Virus record (IMG/VR): IMGVR_UViG_3300035183_000801
Span: 1-20,048 of that record
DNA: 20,048 nucleotides
Source of the DNA: a virus
Direction: 5' to 3' (one strand)
In this document: one piece after another, positions 9,590 through 20,048 of the stretch
Layout of the letters: each line of letters opens with the position of its first letter
Numbering within the stretch: the first letter of the stretch is position 1
Made by a program: the position numbers and the translations under genes
Notes under the pieces: model-generated
What the model was told of the DNA's origin: nothing
Database searches by the model: none
What the model saw: only the letters and a program-made list of their open reading frames with translations

Positions 9590-10990
9590 TCACCTCTTTA
9601 GATAAGGATTGCCTTTGTTTCCACTTCGTCTTTCGTAAATCGCATCCATCAGCTTAATTATACCAGAAGGCGCACCAATGATGTCTTCCTCTTCTTCTTC
9701 ATTATATTCATCATAGTCAATCATGCGTAGATAATACGTTACGTACCTGAACGCATCGCAAACGTCCTTGTGTTCATCTTCAGTCATGGCTTTGGTGCTG
9801 TTTCTATAGTAAAAGTGCTTTAATCCTTCTATCAGCCTTGTGCAATTTTCGCTAATGTATATCTTGTTCCGCCGAAACATGTCGTTTATTGTTGAAATGC
9901 TCTCTTCTCTTTTCGTGGACGGGATAAGCCGTAGCGGGTGCGTAGCGTTCACAACGCTAATCATGGGTTGCCCATTGGTGTCCACCGCTTTTAGCTGGGC
10001 ATCATAGACCACCCGCATTCGCGTCGGCGGTATACCCGCATCCAAACACCACGAGACAATCTCTTCACCCAAAGCACCCAAAGGCACTCCTTTCATTACG
10101 AACTCATCAACAATATAAATCATGTCTTCAAGCTTACATGCATATATCAGTGCGCTGTTGTGTCGCCAACCCCAGTCCAAGCCGACAGCCCACAAGCTGT
10201 TGGTCGGCGGGAACGCCGTAATGCCCACCACATGACGGGTCTCGTCAAACTCATTATACACCCGTCGGCTTTGGTTCAGCATTTTGCCGTAGAGACGGAT
10301 GTCCCGCTCTTGGTCGCTCACCACCTTTTCAATATCAGCCAATACGTCCTTATCTATGTATTTGTTTTCGTACACGGAAACCTGTCGAACGAAATAGTTC
10401 GGGTCGTATTGACTGCGCTCTACCAGCTCATAAAGCCAAGTGATACCATCCAAAGGAGTGGCTGAAACCAGCATCTTTCCGTCCGTATCCAAAAGACGGA
10501 ACCGCATCGCCCTGAATTGCTCCTCTGGGCATTCCTCATCAATCCATATACCATGCAACGACGCTCCTTCCAGCTCACGTATAGTGTGTCGTTGCGTTGT
10601 GAAAGAAACGGTGGAACCGTTCTTCAGCCTAAGGATGTTAAATCTCTGGTTGTAAGCGGTTCGCCAAGAGCCACCAAAAAGTAGGGTTTCGGGTAGGTAC
10701 TTGGTGAACTTTTCCTCTATAACTTCCTTTAACTTCGCATAGTTCACCAAGTGTATACGCCACCTAACAGGCGGTTCGGGAACCTTCAGAAACGGATGCT
10801 CACCTAACAAATGCCAAATTACTTCTATGGCACAGTTTTCGGTCTTTCCGCTACGGTTCCCACCCAAAAGCACTTTATACTTCGCTGGACTTTTCCAAAA
10901 CTCCAGTATCTTATCGTTAGGCGGGATAACGAAAAGATACGGCTTTCGCGTTATATCCGATATGCTTACGACAGGTGGCTGTTTACTCAT
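9590..10990 (-). CDS. terL: Terminase large subunit
   Basis: This is the motor ATPase and nuclease that packages phage DNA into the prohead through the portal. In the 466-residue product Walker A is GGNRSGKT (residues 43-50) and Walker B is HGIWIDEE (D151, E152). The coupling motif is SATP (176-179). The C-terminal RNase H-like nuclease begins at GLDWG (D272), has VVYDAQ (D330) and ends with a DVCDAFRY acidic motif near 425. ATG 10990 follows AGGGAGATAGAGATAA and overlaps the previous gene by 8 bases. An acidic stretch (DYDEYNEEEEEDI) precedes the C-terminus. Length and motif order are normal for the family. Confidence 0.95.
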   Translation of the reverse strand: MSKQPPVVSISDITRKPYLFVIPPNDKILEFWKSPAKYKVLLGGNRSGKTENCAIEVIWHLLGEHPFLKVPEPPVRWRIHLVNYAKLKEVIEEKFTKYLPETLLFGGSWRTAYNQRFNILRLKNGSTVSFTTQRHTIRELEGASLHGIWIDEECPEEQFRAMRFRLLDTDGKMLVSATPLDGITWLYELVERSQYDPNYFVRQVSVYENKYIDKDVLADIEKVVSDQERDIRLYGKMLNQSRRVYNEFDETRHVVGITAFPPTNSLWAVGLDWGWRHNSALIYACKLEDMIYIVDEFVMKGVPLGALGEEIVSWCLDAGIPPTRMRVVYDAQLKAVDTNGQPMISVVNATHPLRLIPSTKREESISTINDMFRRNKIYISENCTRLIEGLKHFYYRNSTKAMTEDEHKDVCDAFRYVTYYLRMIDYDEYNEEEEEDIIGAPSGIIKLMDAIYERRSGNKGNPYLKR

Positions 10991-11426
10991 TTATCTCTAT
11001 CTCCCTGAACCGAACAATTCCAATCTTCTGTAGCTCCTTCAGCTCATCTCCGCGTTCGTCAAGCATACGCAGTCGATGGGCAATGTCCTCTTCCATGCGT
11101 CTACGCTCTTCATCAGACGTGGTGCGAAGCTTCAGGATTTCGGCTATTAAGCGCAGTGCAGTTACAACGGCATCAGGACGCTTGGGGTTTAGGTTCTCCT
11201 GTATAACGTCCAAAATCCCAAGCGTCCTGTTAAGCAGGTGGCTCCAGTCCATGCGATTAACATACCGCAGGGACGCTTCCACCTCTTTTTGGTTTTCATC
11301 ATAAAGACGCAACACGTCGGAAGGCGTCAAGAAAACGCCTTCCAGACGCATTTGCTGAATGATGTATTCCGCACTACGCCCTTCCGCAAACCATTGTATC
11401 AGCTTGTTCTTCTGTTCATCCGTCAT
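10983..11426 (-). CDS. terS: Probable terminase small subunit
   Basis: The 147-residue product lies immediately upstream of the large terminase in the operon and overlaps it by 8 bases, the usual place for the small subunit. The N-terminal 45 residues look like a helix-turn-helix (KLIQWFAEGRSAEYIIQQM...LTPSDVLRLYDENQ). A helical middle suited to oligomerisation follows (LLNRTLGILDVIQENL, AVVTALRLIAEILKL), then a charged helix (SDEERRRMEEDIAHRLRML). Small terminases bind the packaging start site and form rings. The sequence shows no diagnostic motif, so another DNA-binding protein cannot be excluded. ATG 11426 has AAAGGAGATGGTGA upstream and overlaps the prim-pol stop. Confidence 0.7.
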   Translation of the reverse strand: MTDEQKNKLIQWFAEGRSAEYIIQQMRLEGVFLTPSDVLRLYDENQKEVEASLRYVNRMDWSHLLNRTLGILDVIQENLNPKRPDAVVTALRLIAEILKLRTTSDEERRRMEEDIAHRLRMLDERGDELKELQKIGIVRFREIEINE

Positions 11427-13680
11427 CTGCTTTCACCATCTCCTTTATCCCTTCTAAAAAGAAGGGTTGGTTCCTTCTTACGGCATCCCTTCCTTTGGAC
11501 AGCAACGGCGTCAGGTCGGCTTGTGGTGGAGCGTAGAACACAACCCATCGGGTCTTTCCACCTACCACCGTAGGAACAAACGCGACGGGTGCTTTCCAGT
11601 CGATATCGAACAGCTCACCGCGAAGCGGTTGCTTAAAAGCGGTGTAAGCCCTGTTTAGCGTTTCGACAAGACTTAGTTCCCGCCCTTCGCTCTTCAGTTT
11701 TTCCAACGCCTCTTCAGGTGTCGACACCATGAAGGCATGGTCTTCTGTCTTTTGGAACGTGTCGTCAGTAAACGGGTCGGCGTCAGACAAGAAGCACCAG
11801 CCCTGCTCCTTCAGCCGTTTCAAAACCATATCGTCATCTCCTTCCGTTGTTGCGTCGTTCTCTGGTTCTGGTTCTTCGCGGGTGATTTCTTCAGCCGTCG
11901 TCTCTGTCGGGTATTCTATCACATTTTCTGCGATTTCGCCAACATCGGCAAACAGGGTTTTCGTTTCTTCTGGTTCGTCTTCGGGTTCACCAAGATACCG
12001 CTCCAGAAGCCGATGCTGACTGTTGGTGTAAATCTTATCGCCGTCCTCATAGAGAAGCCCCATGCGGAACATTCGACGTATGTCAGCCCTAAACGCTCCT
12101 TTGCCGTAGTTCATTATCTGTTCCGCGTCGTTGAGTTTTCTGGTGTGTATCAGCCTTATCAGCTTCGCCACGCCCTGTGGCACTACCGCCTCTTTCCGCA
12201 GAACGCCCATGTCGAAGTAAAGCGGAACCCTCTCCATATACTTCGGGTGCGTTCCACGACCGACGGCACTGAACGTCGCACCGTCTTCTTTCCTTTCAAG
12301 GCTTACCAGCACATCACAGGAGCCTTGAAAAGCCTGTGAACCCAACGGGGTGCGCTCCAGTGCTTTGTTCGTGTGGTGGACAAGAAACACCACAGGTTGG
12401 GAAGGGATGTCGCGTATTGCAAACCGTATGCTTTCGATGAACCGACCTACGCTGATGTAATCGTTGATATCCACACCCGTCATCAGTCGCCCAACGGTGT
12501 CGACAATCACCAGCACAGGGTTGAGCTTTTGGCAATGCACCCGTAAGGCTTCGATAAAGTCTTTCACTGGTTCCCTGCTTTCGGACGGGTTTGCTTCCAC
12601 GATATAAATGTCGTCTGCGGTCAATCCGTATCGTTCAGACGCCACAGTAACCATGTCCCGAATATCCGTCGCGTATTCTTCTAGGGCATACCAGAGAACC
12701 ACGCCCTGTTGGATGTTGCCGAACCACTTCGTTTCGTTCGCGGTAGAGAGAGCCAAAGACCTAATAAATGTGCTTTTCCCCGACTTGGGCGCACCGCTAA
12801 GAAGAACGACGTCCCCTCTTCTGCAGACGCCTTCCCAGAAGTATTGCCGAGAACCGCCTGCTATATCCTTCAACGCCATCACGTTCAGAAAAGGGTTTTC
12901 TTTTTCCTCTTCTGTGGTGCTTTCCAGCATCCTCAGGGTTTCCTCAAACCCATCCTCATCTGGTAGCGTCAGGGCATTACGTATCATGTTCTCCAGCTCA
13001 TCATCTGGAAGCGGAACATCCAACAGCCTATTCAGACGCCGTCCAGCATCGTAGACCTCGTCTTCGGTTACTTCTGGATGCTCCTTCATGAACACCCTAA
13101 ACTGACGCATGATACGGAACAGCGTGTCGTTCCGCTTTCCCTCAGGAACGGGGAAGTCTTGGTGTTTCGGCAGGTAAAACTCCAGCGGAAGCAACGGAAC
13201 TTCGGCTTCCGTCTTGGGCAGGTACGCGAAATCACGACCCGCTTCCGAACAGGGGGCTACGATATAAACACCCTTCCTGTTCGGTCGCAGGACTTTGTAG
13301 TCAACGGCAAACCCCGACGCCGTCTCCACCTTCGTTTCACACTTCGGATTTGCCCACAGCGGTTGGCGGAACAACAGATGACAACCGCGAACGGTCTTAG
13401 AAACGAACGGGTAAATCTCGGAAAGCCGTTCGGCGTCGGCGTTGGTGTCTATATCCACGACCACCCAACCCGTTTTAATGGAAACACCAAGCTGTCCGCC
13501 GTTGCGCAGGTGTTCCGCTAACAGGGCGTCGTCTTCACTTTCCGCCGTCCAGTTGGAAAACATCGGGGCTTTGTTTTGACAACGGAAAACGGTGTGAACA
13601 AACGGCAACCCCTTCAGGTAACGAACATAACCGATGGGGTTGCTCAAGACCGCTTCGCGTGTTACCTTCGTTCTTTTCAT
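11416..13680 (-). CDS. Primase-polymerase/helicase fusion protein
   Basis: This 754-residue replication protein would prime and unwind DNA. Residues 1-180 match the archaeo-eukaryotic primase (prim-pol) fold: KAPMFSNW near residue 40, DID with D76 and D78, GCHLLF with H101, and VDYKVLRPNRKGVYIVAPCS with D127. Residues about 180-240 form a helical linker like primase C-terminal domains. Residues 265-470 are a RecA-like ATPase with Walker A GAPKSGKST (296-304), Walker B LVIVDT (D394) and VVFLVHHTN, as in RepA/DnaB-type helicases. A winged-helix-like part and about 190 unassigned acidic residues follow. ATG 13680 overlaps the previous stop as ATGA and has AAAGGAG upstream. Its place in the packaging operon is unusual. 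Confidence 0.88.
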   Translation of the reverse strand: MKRTKVTREAVLSNPIGYVRYLKGLPFVHTVFRCQNKAPMFSNWTAESEDDALLAEHLRNGGQLGVSIKTGWVVVDIDTNADAERLSEIYPFVSKTVRGCHLLFRQPLWANPKCETKVETASGFAVDYKVLRPNRKGVYIVAPCSEAGRDFAYLPKTEAEVPLLPLEFYLPKHQDFPVPEGKRNDTLFRIMRQFRVFMKEHPEVTEDEVYDAGRRLNRLLDVPLPDDELENMIRNALTLPDEDGFEETLRMLESTTEEEKENPFLNVMALKDIAGGSRQYFWEGVCRRGDVVLLSGAPKSGKSTFIRSLALSTANETKWFGNIQQGVVLWYALEEYATDIRDMVTVASERYGLTADDIYIVEANPSESREPVKDFIEALRVHCQKLNPVLVIVDTVGRLMTGVDINDYISVGRFIESIRFAIRDIPSQPVVFLVHHTNKALERTPLGSQAFQGSCDVLVSLERKEDGATFSAVGRGTHPKYMERVPLYFDMGVLRKEAVVPQGVAKLIRLIHTRKLNDAEQIMNYGKGAFRADIRRMFRMGLLYEDGDKIYTNSQHRLLERYLGEPEDEPEETKTLFADVGEIAENVIEYPTETTAEEITREEPEPENDATTEGDDDMVLKRLKEQGWCFLSDADPFTDDTFQKTEDHAFMVSTPEEALEKLKSEGRELSLVETLNRAYTAFKQPLRGELFDIDWKAPVAFVPTVVGGKTRWVVFYAPPQADLTPLLSKGRDAVRRNQPFFLEGIKEMVKADDG

Positions 13681-14060
13681 CTTAGTTTGCCATCTCCTTT
13701 GACCAGTATGATGTTCCTGTCGTAGTTGATAGCCCAATTACTGGGATGGTCTTCTTTCACATTGTCGGGTGGAACAATGGTAAGGTCTCCTGTGGTAACG
13801 ATGAACTCCACCTCGTCTAATGTGTAGAAAAGAAGCTTTTGCACAAGACACCACATATCTGGGGAAAACATTCGCCAAAGCGGGTCGGAAACTACCGTTA
13901 TTTCACCAGACGCCACCAACCGCATCGCTTCAAGCGGTGGCGTTACCACTACTTCTTCGCCGTTACGACACTTGGCTATGAAGCGAAGGGCGTCCTTACT
14001 GCTCCTTCTAAGACGTCGAAGGTGTTCTTTATACGTAGTGTCCGTCAAAACCCATCGCAT
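13677..14060 (-). CDS. Unknown first gene of the leftward arm, 127 residues
   Basis: ATG 14060 follows TTGGGGGTGA at 6 bases and begins about 26 bases after the predicted start of transcription from the promoter at 14091-14120. The product begins with a basic helical part (YKEHLRRLRRSSKDALRFIAK) and continues with short strands (EEVVVTPP, EITVVSDP, EVEFIVTTGDLTIVPP). There is no recognised domain. As the promoter-proximal gene coupled to the primase-helicase by an ATGA overlap, it could be a regulator or a small replication partner. The basic N-terminal helix would allow DNA binding; this is inference. Confidence 0.75.
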   Translation of the reverse strand: MRWVLTDTTYKEHLRRLRRSSKDALRFIAKCRNGEEVVVTPPLEAMRLVASGEITVVSDPLWRMFSPDMWCLVQKLLFYTLDEVEFIVTTGDLTIVPPDNVKEDHPSNWAINYDRNIILVKGDGKLR

Positions 14061-14090
14061 GGGCTTCACCCCCAATCTTTTGTTTCCAGT

Positions 14091-14120
14091 TTATTATACG
14101 ACAGATTTTCCGATTTTGTT
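14091..14120 (-). promoter_or_regulatory. Promoter for the leftward arm
   Basis: On the minus strand a perfect TATAAT -10 box lies at 14098-14093, about 33 bases before the first ATG (14060). There is only a weak -35 (GGAACA, three of six matches, 18-base spacer). The 30-base stretch ending in TATAATAAA closely resembles the rightward promoter at 15094-15121: ACAAAATCGGAAAA here against ACAAATCGCAAAA there. That argues both are real promoters. Confidence 0.7.
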
Positions 14121-14146
14121 CCCGTTGGCAGAAAAATCTCAAAACC

Positions 14147-14167: not shown

Positions 14168-14191
14168 AGCGCAAAGCGATGCGCTTTTTTT
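14168..14191 (+). terminator. Rightward intrinsic terminator in the divergent control region
   Basis: The stem AGCGCA/TGCGCT (6 bp) with a 6-base loop is followed by six T residues (14186-14191). It is oriented rightward, yet lies upstream of all rightward genes and downstream of none. It would stop antisense transcripts coming from the leftward arm, or end a small untranslated RNA. The stem is short, so strength is uncertain. Confidence 0.65.
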
Positions 14192-14247
14192 CAAAACGGG
14201 GAAGCGGGGTGGTTGGAGAATATATTCACCACCACAATATACCTAAA

Positions 14248-14281
14248 CTTTCTAAACAACAGATACTGATTGTTTAGAAAG
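14248..14281. repeat. Inverted repeat with 12-bp arms
   Basis: CTTTCTAAACAA (14248-14259) and TTGTTTAGAAAG (14270-14281) are perfect reverse complements around a 10-base spacer, within which CAG and CTG can pair further. The left arm is also the second copy of the direct repeat (14248-14263). It is followed by neither T nor A tract, so it is not an intrinsic terminator. It may be an operator or an initiator-binding site. Confidence 0.75.
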
Positions 14282-14323: not shown

Positions 14324-14355
14324 GGGTATGTATGTTTTTAAAAACATACATACCC
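14324..14355. repeat. Perfect 32-base palindrome
   Basis: The half-site GGGTATGTATGTTTTT is followed immediately by its exact reverse complement, with no spacer. It lies in the middle of the AT-rich region between the divergent arms. It could be extruded as a cruciform or bound by a dimeric protein. Neither strand carries a T-tract after it, so a terminator role is unlikely. Confidence 0.85.
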
Positions 14356-14539
14356 GTAATATATTAATTTATATTTATTTATTATTTATTACGTTTCAAA
14401 GAAAATTGTGTTTTATAAGTTACAACCGATAATAACCACTTACTTTCTAATAAAAAAAAACATGCGATTTGGGAACTTTTTTAGCAAAGCCGTCGTCTAA
14501 AGAAGCGAAAACCAAAAACCTAAAAAGGGGGTGCTTTAT

Positions 14540-15025
14540 ATGCGCTACAAACTTTCCGCCGACCGCTTCATGGTGGTTGTCTATTGTAACAACGAGAAGC
14601 GCAACATTGATAATGTTGTATTAGAAGGAAAGATGGTGCTTCTCGATGTGAACACCAAACATCGTTGGGGAACTATTTATGCGACACCAGACGACATAGC
14701 GAACGAATGGGGGTTCGATGCTGACGAATACAGCTATGACGAAAGCAACGGCGAAATCCACACGTGGAAGTGGTATGAAGTAGACGACGTGGTGCTTCAC
14801 GTGATTGTTTACAGCCCAAAGGAAAACTCCAATGAAGAACTGGGACGTGTGGTCATAGCTGTAGAAAACAGCGAAGCCATCAACAGCCTGTTTACGTTCT
14901 TGACGGATTTTAAGGGCTGGATGTTGATAGAGACAAACGGCGATGTGGAAGCACCGCTGACCAAATACGGCGTCAGGAGATGGACAGAAAAGGAGCGGGA
15001 GCTTCGTGAGCAGGAAATGAAGTAA
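14540..15025 (+). CDS. Unknown early-arm protein, paralogue of 15706-16218
   Basis: ATG 14540 is preceded by AAAAGGGGGTGC at 6 bases. The GTG at 14531 belongs to that site. The 161-residue acidic product is the first rightward gene. It is clearly homologous to the product at 15706-16218: GFDADEYSYDESNGEIHTWK here against QFDADDYTHDEELGITHTWR there, and NSLFTFLTDFKGWMLIET against NSLFTFMTDFNGWVFTET. It has no known domain, signal or membrane segment. The acidic, beta-rich composition would suit a small host-takeover or DNA-mimic protein, but nothing proves this. It is followed by a strong terminator, so it is probably expressed as a single-gene transcript. Confidence 0.8.
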   Translation: MRYKLSADRFMVVVYCNNEKRNIDNVVLEGKMVLLDVNTKHRWGTIYATPDDIANEWGFDADEYSYDESNGEIHTWKWYEVDDVVLHVIVYSPKENSNEELGRVVIAVENSEAINSLFTFLTDFKGWMLIETNGDVEAPLTKYGVRRWTEKERELREQEMK

Positions 15026-15038
15026 TCCACAGCCCTTT

Positions 15039-15076
15039 GCGGGATGCATAGTTTTTTCTTTATGCATCCCGCTTTT
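15039..15076 (+). terminator. Strong rightward intrinsic terminator
   Basis: A perfect 12-bp stem, GCGGGATGCATA (15039-15050) and TATGCATCCCGC (15061-15072), with a 10-base loop is followed by TTTT and then AAAA. It lies 14 bases after the stop of the first rightward gene and just before the promoter at 15094-15118, so it isolates that gene from the rest of the arm. Confidence 0.9.
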
Positions 15077-15152: not shown

Positions 15153-15674
15153 ATGGTGGAACGAGAAGAAACCTATCTCTGCGATACCCCCGCAGATAAA
15201 CTGATAATCGTAGCAGAAGGGTTTTCCAACCAAGATGTAGCAGAAGAATACCGATACCTGAAGAAAGGACACAAGACGGTAGGCATTCGCTTCTTCAGCG
15301 ATTACGGTTTGCACTATCCGCGTAACGCCGTCGAAGTTATCACAGACAGCCTGCGTGTCCACTTCACCGTAACCCCGCTGGTTATCGCCGTCAATCCGCT
15401 TACCAGTTTCTTTAAGTCGGTTTACGGAAGCCGTAATGAAAACTTGACCACAGCTCTTTTTACGCTTTTTTACCATCGGTTGTTTGCACCACAGGCTTAC
15501 ATACTGTCTCCAACAGTAGACCAAGAGATAGTTTATATTCTAGAAAGCATCGGATACCCAGAGCCACCCGTTAACCTGATTAAGGACGTTCAAACGCCTG
15601 TAGCAAAGGCTTTTGAACTTCTTCAAAAATGGGGCTTAGAAAACGGGAACTTTTTTGGAGAACAATACGTCTAA
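15153..15674 (+). CDS. Unknown protein, 173 residues
   Basis: ATG 15153 has AAAGGAGCGAAAG at 3-9 bases and sits behind its own promoter. The product appears to be a soluble alpha/beta protein: KLIIVAEGFSNQDVAEEY, VGIRFFSDYGLHYP, VHFTVTPLVIAVNPLTSFF, LFTLFYHRLFAPQAYILS, EIVYILESIGYPEPP. It ends with a helix (PVAKAFELLQKWGLEN). The VIAVNP and YILSP strands could belong to a Rossmann or RNase H-like fold, but no complete catalytic set is visible. It is inserted between two paralogues that share no similarity with it. The function is not recognised. Confidence 0.75.
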   Translation: MVEREETYLCDTPADKLIIVAEGFSNQDVAEEYRYLKKGHKTVGIRFFSDYGLHYPRNAVEVITDSLRVHFTVTPLVIAVNPLTSFFKSVYGSRNENLTTALFTLFYHRLFAPQAYILSPTVDQEIVYILESIGYPEPPVNLIKDVQTPVAKAFELLQKWGLENGNFFGEQYV

Positions 15675-15705
15675 TAAACAGAAAACTAAACAGGGGGTGA
15701 AAACC

Positions 15706-16218
15706 ATGATGACCGTTGGACAGAACAAACTGCGCTACCGCTTCTACTCTGGAGAGCTGACAGCGTTCGTGGATGTCGACCAAGAGAAGCGCATCGTTCG
15801 CAATGTGGAGATTGAAGGAGAGTTCCCGCTTCTCGTTGTCAATCCCGTCCACCAAATCGCAACGCTGTGGATGCTGACCGACGACCTGACCGATGAATAC
15901 CAGTTCGACGCAGATGACTACACCCACGACGAAGAACTGGGCATCACCCACACGTGGAGATGGCATGACGAAAATGGCAACACCGTCCTGCGGGTTGTGG
16001 TGCATTATCCCGCCGACAACGAACAAGACGACGTGGCACAGGTGGTTGTTTATCTTGAAGACCCAGACGATGTGGTTCCGATGAAAAACAGCCTGTTCAC
16101 GTTCATGACGGACTTTAACGGCTGGGTGTTCACCGAAACCTACGGCAACGTTGCTGACGACCTTACCGCGTTGGGTCGTTATTTTAGCGAAACCCGTCGG
16201 GAAGGAGAAGAAGAATGA
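15706..16218 (+). CDS. Unknown early-arm protein, paralogue of 14540-15025
   Basis: ATG 15706 (or ATG 15709) follows AGGGGGTGA; an earlier in-frame reading from 15655 would overlap the previous gene and has no ribosome site. The 170-residue acidic product (many Asp and Glu; DDLTDEYQFDADDYTHDEE) is plainly related to the first rightward gene over nearly its full length. The similarity persists in the DNA (for example 16089-16130 against 14882-14923), so the duplication is not ancient. The C-terminus carries the strand-FNGW-strand-helix pattern. No domain is recognised. It overlaps the next gene as ATGA, so the two are coupled. Confidence 0.8.
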   Translation: MMTVGQNKLRYRFYSGELTAFVDVDQEKRIVRNVEIEGEFPLLVVNPVHQIATLWMLTDDLTDEYQFDADDYTHDEELGITHTWRWHDENGNTVLRVVVHYPADNEQDDVAQVVVYLEDPDDVVPMKNSLFTFMTDFNGWVFTETYGNVADDLTALGRYFSETRREGEEE

Positions 16219-16679
16219 GCGCAACGGTTCTTGATGTGCCCAAGAGCGAATACTACACGCTCAACACCCGTCGTTTCAACATTGACGGCATGGACGTTTC
16301 CGTTTTCGCCCCGATGGGGTTCATCATGAACGGAACCATCTCTAACGGCGAACAGTTCTCTGTGGCGTTTGATGCCGTGAGGGGAAAATCGGTTTTGTCT
16401 GCAGGTGTAAAAGACTACGAACCTACGGTAGTGGACTTCAGAACCTTTCCTGAAGGGGAAGGCTTTGAAAAATCGACCGACTTTCATTTTCGCGTGAACG
16501 GGAACGAAATCGCACTAAGCGTAGTCAAAACAAAGGAAGGCACATTCCTTTCGTTCGTGTTCTGCGAAAAAGACAGTGAAGACGCCTACTTTCTGCTCCA
16601 CCTGACCAGAGACGGTTACACCATCAGAGGAGCAGGAAACACAAACAAACGGATTAACAAAATCTTAGGGGGTGAATGA
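16215..16679 (+). CDS. Unknown beta-rich protein, 154 residues
   Basis: ATG 16215 overlaps the previous stop by four bases and has GGAAGGAGAAG upstream. The product is composed mainly of strands (YYTLNTRRFNIDGMDVSVFA, FHFRVNGNEIALSVV, TFLSFVFCEKD, YFLLHLTRDGYTIRG) and ends in a short basic helix (NKRINKIL). It has no signal peptide or membrane segment. Overall layout and size resemble the neighbouring paralogue pair and the left-arm proteins at 464-952 and 969-1388, without clear sequence identity. It sits just upstream of the annealing protein, separated by one base plus the stop-start junction. Function unknown. Confidence 0.75.
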   Translation: MSATVLDVPKSEYYTLNTRRFNIDGMDVSVFAPMGFIMNGTISNGEQFSVAFDAVRGKSVLSAGVKDYEPTVVDFRTFPEGEGFEKSTDFHFRVNGNEIALSVVKTKEGTFLSFVFCEKDSEDAYFLLHLTRDGYTIRGAGNTNKRINKILGGE

Positions 16680-16680
16680 A

Positions 16681-17469
16681 ATGGCAAACAAAGCAACAAC
16701 CACCAAGCTTGGCGAACTGGTGGAAATCCTGTCGGAGCCGTTCGCCGTCGAAGAACATGAATACCGCGTGGTTGCCCAAACCAAGAGCGGGTTCTGGATG
16801 GCGTATTACGTCGACCTTAGGAAGATGGAAGAGCGACTGCAGAAGGTGCTTCCCGCTGGTAGCAACGTGTCGTTCGCCATCAAAGAGATTGATGAAATTG
16901 CCGACGCCGTGTATGCGTTGGGGAGCCTTCGGATTGAAATCCCCGACGGCGAAGGCAGAACGTTCTACGAAGTAACCGACGCTGGTTACGCCGTAACCAG
17001 TTCGGCGGAACCGCCCAAGTCCGCCGTAACCGATTTGTATCGCCGACTGCTGAGCCACTTCGGTATTGGGCGGTATCTCTACCACCTGCCGAAGATACAC
17101 CTGAGCGGAAAGAACGACAACGGTCGTTTCATCTACGACGCCGACCCGCTGGACGCCCTGCGCCATGCGATGTCGCTGACGGGTAAAGAGCGACCCGAAG
17201 TCCTTTTCTACCCGCCAAAGAAGCAGAGCGACGGCGAAGCTGTTACCACCCGAAGCAGTGGAGATGCCGACATAAAAGACGACTGGTTGGACTACTTCGG
17301 CGTGGACAGCAAAGAAGAAGCAGTGGACGCTTTCGTGGACGAAGTCGGGGTAACCCGAAAACAGGCGGTGGTGTATATGAGAAACACCACACCTGAAGCT
17401 TCTAATGGCGGTATTGATAAGACGACCGTGAAAGCGTTCCTTGACAAACTGCTTGGCAACAAGCGGTAA
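16681..17469 (+). CDS. Rad52-type single-strand DNA annealing protein
   Basis: This protein would anneal complementary single strands during phage recombination and replication repair. ATG 16681 has TAGGGGGTGA at 5 bases; the in-frame GTG 16672 is part of that site. In the 262-residue product residues 10-60 match the Rad52/Rad22 N-terminal pattern (FAVEEHEYRVV, then FWMAYYVDLRKMEERLQKVLP). Residues 82-105 give the central strands, and 112-137 end in FGIGRYLYHLP, the signature helix of the family. The C-terminal 90 residues are a linker plus an acidic helical part (DWLDYFGVDSKEEAVDAFV). It is followed by a terminator and then by a resolvase, nuclease and DNA polymerase, a coherent recombination block. 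Mode of action is inferred from the family. Confidence 0.82.
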   Translation: MANKATTTKLGELVEILSEPFAVEEHEYRVVAQTKSGFWMAYYVDLRKMEERLQKVLPAGSNVSFAIKEIDEIADAVYALGSLRIEIPDGEGRTFYEVTDAGYAVTSSAEPPKSAVTDLYRRLLSHFGIGRYLYHLPKIHLSGKNDNGRFIYDADPLDALRHAMSLTGKERPEVLFYPPKKQSDGEAVTTRSSGDADIKDDWLDYFGVDSKEEAVDAFVDEVGVTRKQAVVYMRNTTPEASNGGIDKTTVKAFLDKLLGNKR

Positions 17470-17489
17470 AGAAAAGAACCAAAGAAAAG

Positions 17490-17518
17490 GGGGCAGGGCG
17501 GTTGCTCTGCCCCGTTTT
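17490..17518 (+). terminator. Intrinsic terminator within the replication block
   Basis: A 10-bp GC-rich stem (GGGGCAGGGC/GCTCTGCCCC, one G-T pair) with a GGTT loop is followed by G and TTTT. It lies 20 bases after the annealing-protein stop. The resolvase ribosome site AGGTGAAGAG starts two bases beyond the T-tract, so there is no room for a promoter between. The short T-tract suggests partial termination that lowers downstream expression. Confidence 0.75.
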
Positions 17519-17531
17519 CAGGTGAAGAGAT

Positions 17532-18044
17532 ATGGAAATCAGGGAAGCCTATTTGATAAAATGTGAGCCACCAAAGATAGGGGCAATATGCATCGACCCA
17601 GCTTCCACAGGTTGGCGTGAAGGGCTTGAAGAAAAACCGTATAGGGGAAACTGGGGGCTTCTGTTTTCCACGAGGGAAGGACTGCACTGTTACACGTTAT
17701 ATGCTTCCAGCGGAGAGGTCTGTGATTTTATTCAAAGGTTTATATTTACGAACACAGACCCACATGAAGAAGACCAAGCCATAATAGAAGAACCAGTTTA
17801 TCCGAACATCAAATTGGCTGGAGCGTGTGGCTTCGTTAGCGGTTACCTAAAGGGCTACGGAATAACAACCCAGTGGGTACACCCTTCCAACTGGGCACAA
17901 AGGGCGGGGGTGGATTACAGGAAACTGGGCTTCAAAAGATACACTCCGTCGGAACACATCATTGATGTTATCGGAATGTATTTCCTTATTTACGGTAAGG
18001 TCGAAAAAGCGACCGTTAAGAAAAACGGTAACGGAGAGGGATAA
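17532..18044 (+). CDS. RuvC-like Holliday junction resolvase
   Basis: This nuclease would cleave branched DNA made during recombination or replication, clearing it before packaging. The 170-residue product carries the RNase H-like acidic set: D22 in AICIDPASTGW on the first strand, E86/E87 in AIIEEPVY, and the C-terminal helix EHIIDVIGMYF with E141/H142 and D145. A central VHPSNWAQRAGVD segment precedes that helix, where RuvC-type proteins have their substrate loop. ATG 17532 has AGGTGAAGAG upstream. It stands between the annealing protein and a Cas4/RecB-like nuclease. Size fits RuvC (about 170). Other RNase H-like nucleases are possible, but D-E-D order and context favour a resolvase. Confidence 0.8.
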   Translation: MEIREAYLIKCEPPKIGAICIDPASTGWREGLEEKPYRGNWGLLFSTREGLHCYTLYASSGEVCDFIQRFIFTNTDPHEEDQAIIEEPVYPNIKLAGACGFVSGYLKGYGITTQWVHPSNWAQRAGVDYRKLGFKRYTPSEHIIDVIGMYFLIYGKVEKATVKKNGNGEG

Positions 18045-18051
18045 GACGACT

Positions 18052-18867
18052 GTGCATAAAATAGCGTTTTACAAACTAGAAAATTACCATCAGTGTCCAC
18101 TGCGTGTAGCACTGATGGAACACTTCGGTTACAAAGGAAAGCTTTTCCTCCCCCAATTTGTTGGCTTAATTGCTCATGAGTATTACGAACGTCTCATAGG
18201 TCGTTGGGCAGGCTATGAAGAGCCGTTTGTTCTTGATGAGGTGGTGAAAAAGGTCATCAGAGACCGCGAACCCGTCTTTAGCATAGAAGAAGGGCTGAAG
18301 GCATGGGAAAACCAGCCCCGTGAACTGTGGGAGCAACACCTGCTTGGACTTTTAGAAAGCGAACGAAAGGGGCTGTTCCAAAGGGAATATGAAGGGTGGA
18401 AACCGTTGAGCGACGACGTTGTGCTTCATGGTTTCTGTGATGTTATCATCGACAGGGGAGACGAAAAAGAAATCATCGACCTGAAGTTTACGAGAAAGAA
18501 ACACAGATATAACTACAACCAGCTTCTGGTTTATTCACATCTTTTCGAAGCCCAAAAGGTTTCTTTCTTATTTTTCGAACCCGACGGAAACGTCGAGAAG
18601 CGAACCGTAGAAGTAAACCCTAACAGCAGTAAGCTTAACCGTCTGCTTGGTGAAATGCGGTGGTTGGCAGAGCGGATAGGGGAAGGGAACTTCGCGGGGT
18701 TCAGACCTAAACACGGAAGCACATGCCACCCCAACAGGTGCGCCATGTGGGATTTCTGCCCAGAAGTCCAGATAGGAAAGGACGGTGTTCAGTATGAGGA
18801 ACATCCTGACTGGGAAGGATTGGAAGGTTATCCTTCCGAAGACGAACTATGTTTTGATGAAGAGTAA
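18052..18867 (+). CDS. Cas4/RecB-like PD-(D/E)XK nuclease with Fe-S cysteines
   Basis: This protein probably trims DNA ends to feed annealing. The 271-residue product shows RecB-nuclease motifs in order: H42, E112, GFCD with D130, IIDLK with D143 and K145, and QLLVY with Q157. One cysteine near the N-terminus (C15 in YHQCPLR) and three at the C-terminus (C225, C230, C236) have the arrangement that binds a 4Fe-4S cluster in Cas4 and AddB. The start is GTG 18052, seven bases after the resolvase stop with GGAGAGGG upstream. An in-frame ATG at 17962 would overlap the resolvase by more than 80 bases without need. There is no CRISPR array or cas1/cas2, so this is a phage recombination nuclease rather than part of a CRISPR locus. 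Confidence 0.85.
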   Translation: MHKIAFYKLENYHQCPLRVALMEHFGYKGKLFLPQFVGLIAHEYYERLIGRWAGYEEPFVLDEVVKKVIRDREPVFSIEEGLKAWENQPRELWEQHLLGLLESERKGLFQREYEGWKPLSDDVVLHGFCDVIIDRGDEKEIIDLKFTRKKHRYNYNQLLVYSHLFEAQKVSFLFFEPDGNVEKRTVEVNPNSSKLNRLLGEMRWLAERIGEGNFAGFRPKHGSTCHPNRCAMWDFCPEVQIGKDGVQYEEHPDWEGLEGYPSEDELCFDEE

Positions 18868-20048
18868 CGAAGTCAGAAGTCCCGTTTGCACCTATGAGAA
18901 CGGGTTGGCACTCGTTCCAAGCCCAACTGGTTTTTTACCAGACGGGGTCGGCGAACTGATACGAACGGGTCTAAGGGCGACCCCGCCACACAGGATAGCG
19001 GTGTTTGATGTGGAGACCACAGGGTTAGACAAAGACCGCGATAAGGTTTTGCTTATCGGTCTGTTGCTCCATGACGAAAAAAGCAGGACGGTCATTTTAG
19101 AGGGCGACGAGAAAACCATCCTGAAGGAGCTTAAAAAGCAACTGGATGCTTTTTCTCCTGATGTTATCGTGGGACACAACGCCTTCAAGTTTGACTGTCC
19201 GTTCATCAACAGCAGGATGGAAATCAACGGGTTGGTTCCCCTTTTCAGGGGAGAAACCGCCAACGTTAGAGTGGGCACTGAGCAAAAAGAGATAGTTGTT
19301 TACTTCGTGGGCGACACCCCAGTCCACGACACGTATATATTGGCACAGCGTCTGGACGGTTTTGGCTATCATAGCGAAAGCTTTAACCTGAAGTCATTGG
19401 CGGTGGCGTGGTTAGGAATGGAAGACTGGGGAGACTACGAAACCGCCAAAGACAAAAAGGAATACCTAGAAAAAGACTTGGAAGCAACCTACAGGCTTTA
19501 TCGGTTTTCAGTAGCTCACTGGGACGCTTTGGTGAAAATCGTTCCCGTTCCATACAATCCTTTCTTGGGGAACGGGATGCTGGTGAATACCCTTTTCACC
19601 GCTTTGTTGCTTCCCTTTATGCCACCACCAAAGCAACCGCAAAAGACGGAATACGAAGGCGGATACGTAGACATAAGGAGATACGGATACTTCAAACCAG
19701 TGGGACATCTAGACGTGGTGTCGATGTATCCGCATCTCATGCTAAATATAAAGCCATGTTGGGATAAATACGGCATGTTTTCTCGTGTGGTTCGCCTTAT
19801 GCTGGATTGGCGATTAAAGGAGAAGGAGAAAGCCAAGCGGGGCGACAAAGACGCCCAGAAAAACCAAATGGCTATTAAAATCCTAATAAACAGCTTCTAC
19901 GGTTTTCTGGGTGCTACGTTCCGCTTTAGCGACCCGCTGACGGCACAGGAGATTACCAGACGCGGTAGGGAAACCGTAAAGAAGCTTTGCGATAAGCTCA
20001 GCGAATACGGCTTTGAAGTAATCGAAGTTGATACCGATGGAGTATATT
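18857..20048 (+). CDS. polB: Family B DNA polymerase, N-terminal part, cut by window end
   Basis: This is the replicative polymerase with proofreading exonuclease. ATG 18857 overlaps the nuclease stop by 11 bases and lacks a good ribosome site, so re-initiation is likely. The frame stays open for 397 codons to the window end. Exonuclease motifs: FDVETTGLD (D51, E53), VGHNAFKFD (N108, D113) and YLEKD (Y203, D207). Polymerase motifs: EGGYV, motif A LDVVSMYPHLM (D286), motif B KILINSFYGF (K341) and motif C DTDG (D392, D394). The fingers helices resemble archaeal Thermococcus-type enzymes. Only 50 residues precede Exo I, against about 140 in archaeal enzymes, so the usual N-terminal domain is missing or elsewhere. 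No protein-priming insertions are evident between motifs A and B. Confidence 0.95.
   Translation, partial: MKSNEVRSPVCTYENGLALVPSPTGFLPDGVGELIRTGLRATPPHRIAVFDVETTGLDKDRDKVLLIGLLLHDEKSRTVILEGDEKTILKELKKQLDAFSPDVIVGHNAFKFDCPFINSRMEINGLVPLFRGETANVRVGTEQKEIVVYFVGDTPVHDTYILAQRLDGFGYHSESFNLKSLAVAWLGMEDWGDYETAKDKKEYLEKDLEATYRLYRFSVAHWDALVKIVPVPYNPFLGNGMLVNTLFTALLLPFMPPPKQPQKTEYEGGYVDIRRYGYFKPVGHLDVVSMYPHLMLNIKPCWDKYGMFSRVVRLMLDWRLKEKEKAKRGDKDAQKNQMAIKILINSFYGFLGATFRFSDPLTAQEITRRGRETVKKLCDKLSEYGFEVIEVDTDGVY

Follow-up and report, generated by a model that had tools for sequence, protein, structure and literature searches.

A perfect 32-base palindrome lies in the gap between two divergent blocks of genes in this viral DNA, which was analysed over its whole length of 20,048 bp (the window). 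Because at least two further inverted repeats, missed by the earlier note, share the gap with it (Table 1), the element is an array. A hairpin array was found at the same gap in every related contig that spans it (clades A-D), with compensatory changes in the arms of the main palindrome. The array directly precedes a small ORF and a primase-helicase gene, and stands opposite a Rad52/Erf-nuclease-PolB module. Judging from sequence, we see about an even chance that the palindrome belongs, as one of several hairpins, to a DNA hairpin or cruciform array forming part of the phage replication origin.

The palindrome and the gap around it

On re-reading, the coordinates, length and perfection of the palindrome given in the earlier note proved exact. 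Its placement in an AT-rich site between divergent operons was also right, in agreement with the gene orientations, which are minus for all genes left of the gap and plus for all genes right of it. No other perfect palindrome in the whole 20,048-bp window had a half-length above 8. A search for stems of 13 bp or longer, with one mismatch and a loop of up to 15 allowed, gave a single further stem, which has a loop, at 10906-10940. When the 474-bp gap was put through 500 dinucleotide shuffles, the longest half-length was 4.95 on average and 9 at most, compared with 16 observed. These shuffles ruled out a chance origin, which had already been called unlikely; by our own arithmetic the chance of such a palindrome is <1e-5 over the whole window. 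An intrinsic terminator was likewise rejected, as the earlier note had held, because the two sides of the palindrome are flanked by GTAATATATT and ATTAGTTAGT, with no T-run (U-tract) on either side. The terminator scan of the region did not return 14324-14355. Comparison of the palindrome region with phage and plasmid records gave weak matches at E 0.6 or none.

Table 1. Features of the gap and of the genes on its two sides (window coordinates)
Feature	Positions	Strand	Description
Primase-helicase	11416..13686	-	Prim-Pol (PF09250), weak PriCT_1 and AAA_25 (PF13481, RepA/RecA-like)
129-aa conserved protein	13677..14066	-	First gene left of the array; relatives alignable
Sigma-70-like leftward promoter	14093..14121	-	Of the small ORF/primase operon; GAACAA, 17-bp spacer, TATAAT
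Intrinsic-terminator-like hairpin with T tail	14168..14191	+	Left of the array, reads rightward; from scan
Third inverted repeat, imperfect	14209..14235	.	Adjoins G-rich box GTGGTTGGAGAATATATTCACCACCAC; predicted in DNA folds
Second inverted repeat	14248..14281	.	CTTTCTAAACAA, 10-nt loop CAGATACTGA, TTGTTTAGAAAG; 12 bp, perfect
Main palindrome	14324..14355	.	16-bp arms GGGTATGTATGTTTTT/AAAAACATACATACCC, apex TTTTTAAAAA, no spacer
A/T-rich flank	14356..14400	.	Right of the main palindrome
First gene right of the array	14540..15025	+	Product without assignment
Rightward replication/recombination module	16672..20047	+	Rad52/Erf annealing protein, 170-aa ORF, PD-(D/E)XK nuclease, family B DNA polymerase

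The other elements of the gap have counterparts in the related contigs. The second inverted repeat is found at the same place in L004 and L011, as AAATTACATAAA..TTTATGTAATTT in L005, L012 and L008, and as an 18-bp stem in L021; the third corresponds to GGGGTGGTAAGAATTACTACCCC in L005 and GGTGTAGTGAAATATCACTACACC in L008. In L005 and L012 the place of the A/T-rich flank is taken by a 46-bp A/T palindrome, which is perfect in L005 and has one mismatched pair in L012. The terminator-like hairpin is visible in L004 and L011 as well. The leftward promoter, which was read from the sequence and not returned by the consensus scan, is kept in the relatives and points away from the gap. Single-stranded DNA folds fell far below those of shuffled sequences (z of -6.8 and -7.6 for the window, -14.5 for the L012 array and -4.1 for L021), and in the contigs that were read, long stems without a loop occurred nowhere but in this gap. 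No iteron-like set of direct repeats was present in the window gap.

Compensatory change in related contigs

Relatives were found by primase queries as viral contigs with 63-93% protein identity, and up to 100% for partial ones; they represent about four independent lineages, all fragments. Queries with the first rightward gene and PolB found no contigs, and when Rad52/Erf and the 15153 gene were used for scanning, all contigs recovered were already known. Among cultured relatives, the window gave no DNA match and the terminase and primase gave matches of <30% identity; no relative was found in host genomes. For a 24-nt motif from the non-coding element described below, one match was found in Pseudomonas; it falls within a reading frame of 656 aa, and we attribute it to chance.

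Versions of the main palindrome occur in clades A-C, and their arms differ yet remain symmetric. In clade A, the palindrome of L011 is identical to that of the window, and L004 has the same arms with an A-run insertion at the apex; both contigs carry an additional 18-bp GC hairpin that is missing in the window. In clade B (L005 and L012) the palindrome is perfect over 38 bp, with ACGGGTATTACTG(AA or GG)AATA followed by its complement, and is accompanied by a GC hairpin (TTTAAA-type apex) and the A/T palindrome mentioned above. The corresponding palindrome of the clade C contig L008, GGGTCTTATTG..CAATAAGACCC, contains one mismatch. In clade D (L021), an 18-bp stem that encloses a 13-nt loop is accompanied by weaker palindromes, and no clear homologue of the main palindrome was found there.

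The earlier note had named conservation in relatives and compensatory changes in both arms as checks, and both were observed. The palindrome stands at the same position in the window, L011, L004, L005, L012 and L008, and nearly every difference in the left arm is mirrored on the right. MAFFT did not align the arms of the palindrome correctly, and pairs were therefore counted after the arms had been aligned outside-in. Over the 16 outer pairs of four distinct sequences, 63 of 64 cells were Watson-Crick and none was a wobble (G.T or A.C), and only 40-45 of 64 were Watson-Crick when right arms were swapped between sequences. In pairwise comparisons, the left-arm differences that were mirrored with both pairs intact numbered 7/7, 7/7, 7/8, 2/2, 3/3 and 4/5. 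The neighbouring hairpins covary too, both between L005 and L012 (GC hairpin 2/2, A/T palindrome 2/3) and between L004 and L011 (GC hairpin 2/2). Within clade A the arms are constant and the spacer to their right drifts, and an outer GGGT..ACCC is common to clades A-C. Across these sequences, shape and symmetry are kept, and arm sequence is not. The wobble-free pairing is what would be expected of symmetry at the DNA level rather than of an RNA hairpin.

Several side observations concern the layout of the relatives. A 95-bp tandem duplication in L008 (2461-2642) comprises the whole palindrome and its flanks, with copies 98% identical. In clade B, inverted G-rich boxes bracket the array of L012 (4183-4640), with AAGCAGGGGGTGGGG.. 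on the left and the complement of TAAGCAGGGGGGGTAGGG.. on the right, making the region roughly symmetric by eye. L004, L006, L009, L010 and L011 end inside or just past the gap; palindromes or repeats probably broke the assembly at these places, and it is possible that hairpin ends lie behind them.

In window orientation, a conserved non-coding element of about 130-150 nt, with the core GCTGTARAGCCRACGTRGCGCAAT, lies to the left of the array. It occurs at L004:343-495, L005:4432-4582, L012:4799-4926 and L008:2906-3253 and also in L009, L010 and L011, is present in two copies in L008, L009 and L010, and is largely missing from the window and L021. In clade A the element carries a rightward terminator, and in the window it is deleted. 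No Rfam match was found. Folded as RNA, its two strands gave mean z of -1.5 and -1.4 and no consistent fold.

Neighbouring genes and alternative readings

The Prim-Pol domain of the primase-helicase passed the Pfam cut-off (PF09250, E 1e-6), and its helicase part matched AAA_25 and primase/helicase PHROGs; no SF3 helicase family was among its matches. This protein is a candidate user of the array. The 129-aa protein had no significant family in Pfam, PHROG or NCBIfam. Structure models of this protein and of the product of the 15153 gene had mean pLDDT of 40 and 48, too poor for use. The other minus-strand genes left of the gap include those for terminase, amidase, portal and a Mu-like capsid protein. 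To the right, the family B DNA polymerase gene runs off the contig end. Located between the array and the 15153 gene, the first rightward gene has a terminator-like hairpin of its own behind it (15039-15072) and resembles the gene at 15655-16218; both match one and the same place in the relatives.

Of the two candidates in the earlier note, an origin element and a dimer operator for an early/late switch, origin or structural DNA fits better, and the switch is without direct support. A DNA-binding dimer operator, or a pair of them, controlling the divergent early and late operons would explain why the site lies between these operons, and agrees with the constant clade A arms beside a drifting right spacer, with the maintained outer GGGT..ACCC and with a weak promoter-like match that overlaps the palindrome apex in the window. 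It nevertheless appears doubtful, because the arms vary between clades while the symmetry does not, because perfect symmetry through the centre over 32-38 bp exceeds what a dimer needs, because several different and unrelated hairpins adjoin each other, and because the conserved leftward promoter is about 200 bp from the palindrome, with no overlap. In addition, no second copy of the arm motif was found in the window, even with 2 mismatches allowed, so an operator regulon was rejected, and no repressor-like family was found among the neighbouring genes scanned. The turnover of the arms, the kept symmetry, the lack of wobble pairs and the presence of several hairpins together favour DNA structure over an operator and also over RNA. 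A hairpin acting at the RNA level, as a leader or antisense RNA structure, would be compatible with compensatory change too, and a conserved, possibly transcribed element adjoins the array in relatives. We consider it very improbable, given that there are no G.U-type cells, that the palindrome is without a following U-tract, that promoter sequences right of the array in L005, L012 and L008 point away from it, and that Rfam gave no match.

Structural DNA could also serve a purpose other than an origin, such as a transcription insulator, a topological sink, or a lagging-strand or recombination-dependent start site. The divergent operons around the array with an intrinsic terminator on its left, the DNA-level symmetry, and the Rad52/Erf protein and nuclease encoded nearby are in line with such roles, but nothing specific links the array to them and the adjoining primase-helicase favours initiation; we regard this explanation as unlikely. 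The symmetry might instead be a mutational by-product without function. Quasi-palindromes are known to be corrected by template switching (e.g. PMC7202029, PMC3820800); switching between the arms would perfect them and yield exactly mirrored changes. Although template switching may be the process that maintains the symmetry, a by-product would leave unexplained why several hairpins occur at one place in all lineages, why long loop-free stems are absent elsewhere and why clade A arms are constant beside a drifting spacer, and is improbable.

If the palindrome were a protelomerase target, formed where two covalently closed hairpin ends are joined, its length and perfection would be accounted for, since replication through a hairpin makes the product symmetric; the contig L006/L016 also ends near the palindrome centre. 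Protelomerase systems have one target site per genome and a protelomerase gene. The long near-perfect palindrome resembles the sites of N15 and its relatives, but here each phage has several different palindromes, PF16684 was unmatched in 10 related contigs, all of them fragments, and the window, L004, L005, L008, L012 and L021 read straight through the region. We give this reading hardly any credence.

The replication-origin reading and its precedents

A role of the array in replication is suggested by the primase-helicase operon on one side, the replication module on the opposite side and a nearby GC-skew minimum. In the window, cumulative GC skew reaches its minimum at 14569, and in four relatives the minimum lies no more than about 0.8 kb from the array; this signal is confounded because the gene strand flips at the gap from minus on the left to plus on the right. 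Several points count against the origin reading. Iterons, which many initiator origins have, are absent from the window gap; the side of the operon on which the array lies and the helicase type differ from those of pRN1, described below; clade D is without a clear palindrome homologue and only about four independent lineages are available; and template switching could mirror arm changes without selection. Since the contig is a fragment, a further origin may lie outside it.

From these features we infer extrusion, protein binding and origin activity as follows. Negative supercoiling together with the A/T-rich flanks, or prior melting, would allow hairpins to extrude at the palindrome and at the repeats beside it. 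The Prim-Pol/RepA-like primase-helicase of the adjacent operon would load at the hairpins, possibly assisted by the small conserved 129-aa protein, and lay the first primers, which the phage PolB would extend outward in both directions.

The nearest precedent is the Prim-Pol replicon pRN1 of Sulfolobus islandicus, which needs a stem-loop conserved in shape and not in sequence, and in which a compensating mutation restored replication (PMC4234260). As with ORF904 of pRN1, a Prim-Pol domain is fused to a helicase domain and stem-loop structure near the gene is conserved while sequence is not. However, pRN1 has a single stem-loop of about 100 nt located 3′ of the rep gene, whereas an array of separate palindromes is located 5′ of the operon here, and the pRN1 helicase is SF3, whereas that of the phage is RepA/RecA-like (AAA_25). 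In the RSF1010 oriV, the hairpins ssiA and ssiB are single-strand initiation sites used with the RepA helicase and RepB′ primase (PMC4434180, PMC4234260). The phage protein similarly combines a RepA-like helicase with an AEP-type primase, fused in one protein as judged by domain matches only. In contrast, RSF1010 uses iterons with RepC, its polypeptides are separate, and each strand carries one short hairpin with a loop, whereas the window gap has no iterons and the phage stems exceed those of RSF1010 in length and mostly lack a loop. A primase GTG start signal, as in pRN1 and RSF1010, looked by eye neither conserved nor consistently placed 3′ of the hairpins here. Because the SF3 helicase, the 3′ location and the iterons were not found, we do not assign the array to either family. 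The setting resembles that of c2-type lactococcal phages (Ceduovirus), whose sequence-diverse origin occupies the gap that separates the divergently oriented early and late modules (PMC7150918). Here too the array is in a non-coding gap between divergent modules, with early/late timing inferred from gene content, and gap sequence varies between groups. The c2 origins, however, involve a non-coding transcript, PE1-T, and are independent of phage proteins. Set against this transcript, the conserved non-coding element described above carries a rightward terminator in clade A, is deleted in the window, and gave neither a consistent fold nor an Rfam match.

More tentatively, the array may represent a class of origin made of back-to-back loop-free palindromes, read by shape by a fused Prim-Pol/RepA-like helicase, with arms that vary only jointly. 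If the origin reading is true, stem-loop-dependent Prim-Pol initiation would extend from crenarchaeal plasmids to a group of uncultured tailed phages, and the related contigs would provide natural compensatory variants for asking whether the initiator reads DNA shape or sequence. Palindromes that covary, placed between divergent operons and close to a Prim-Pol gene, would then offer a simple origin-finding signature for phage contigs.
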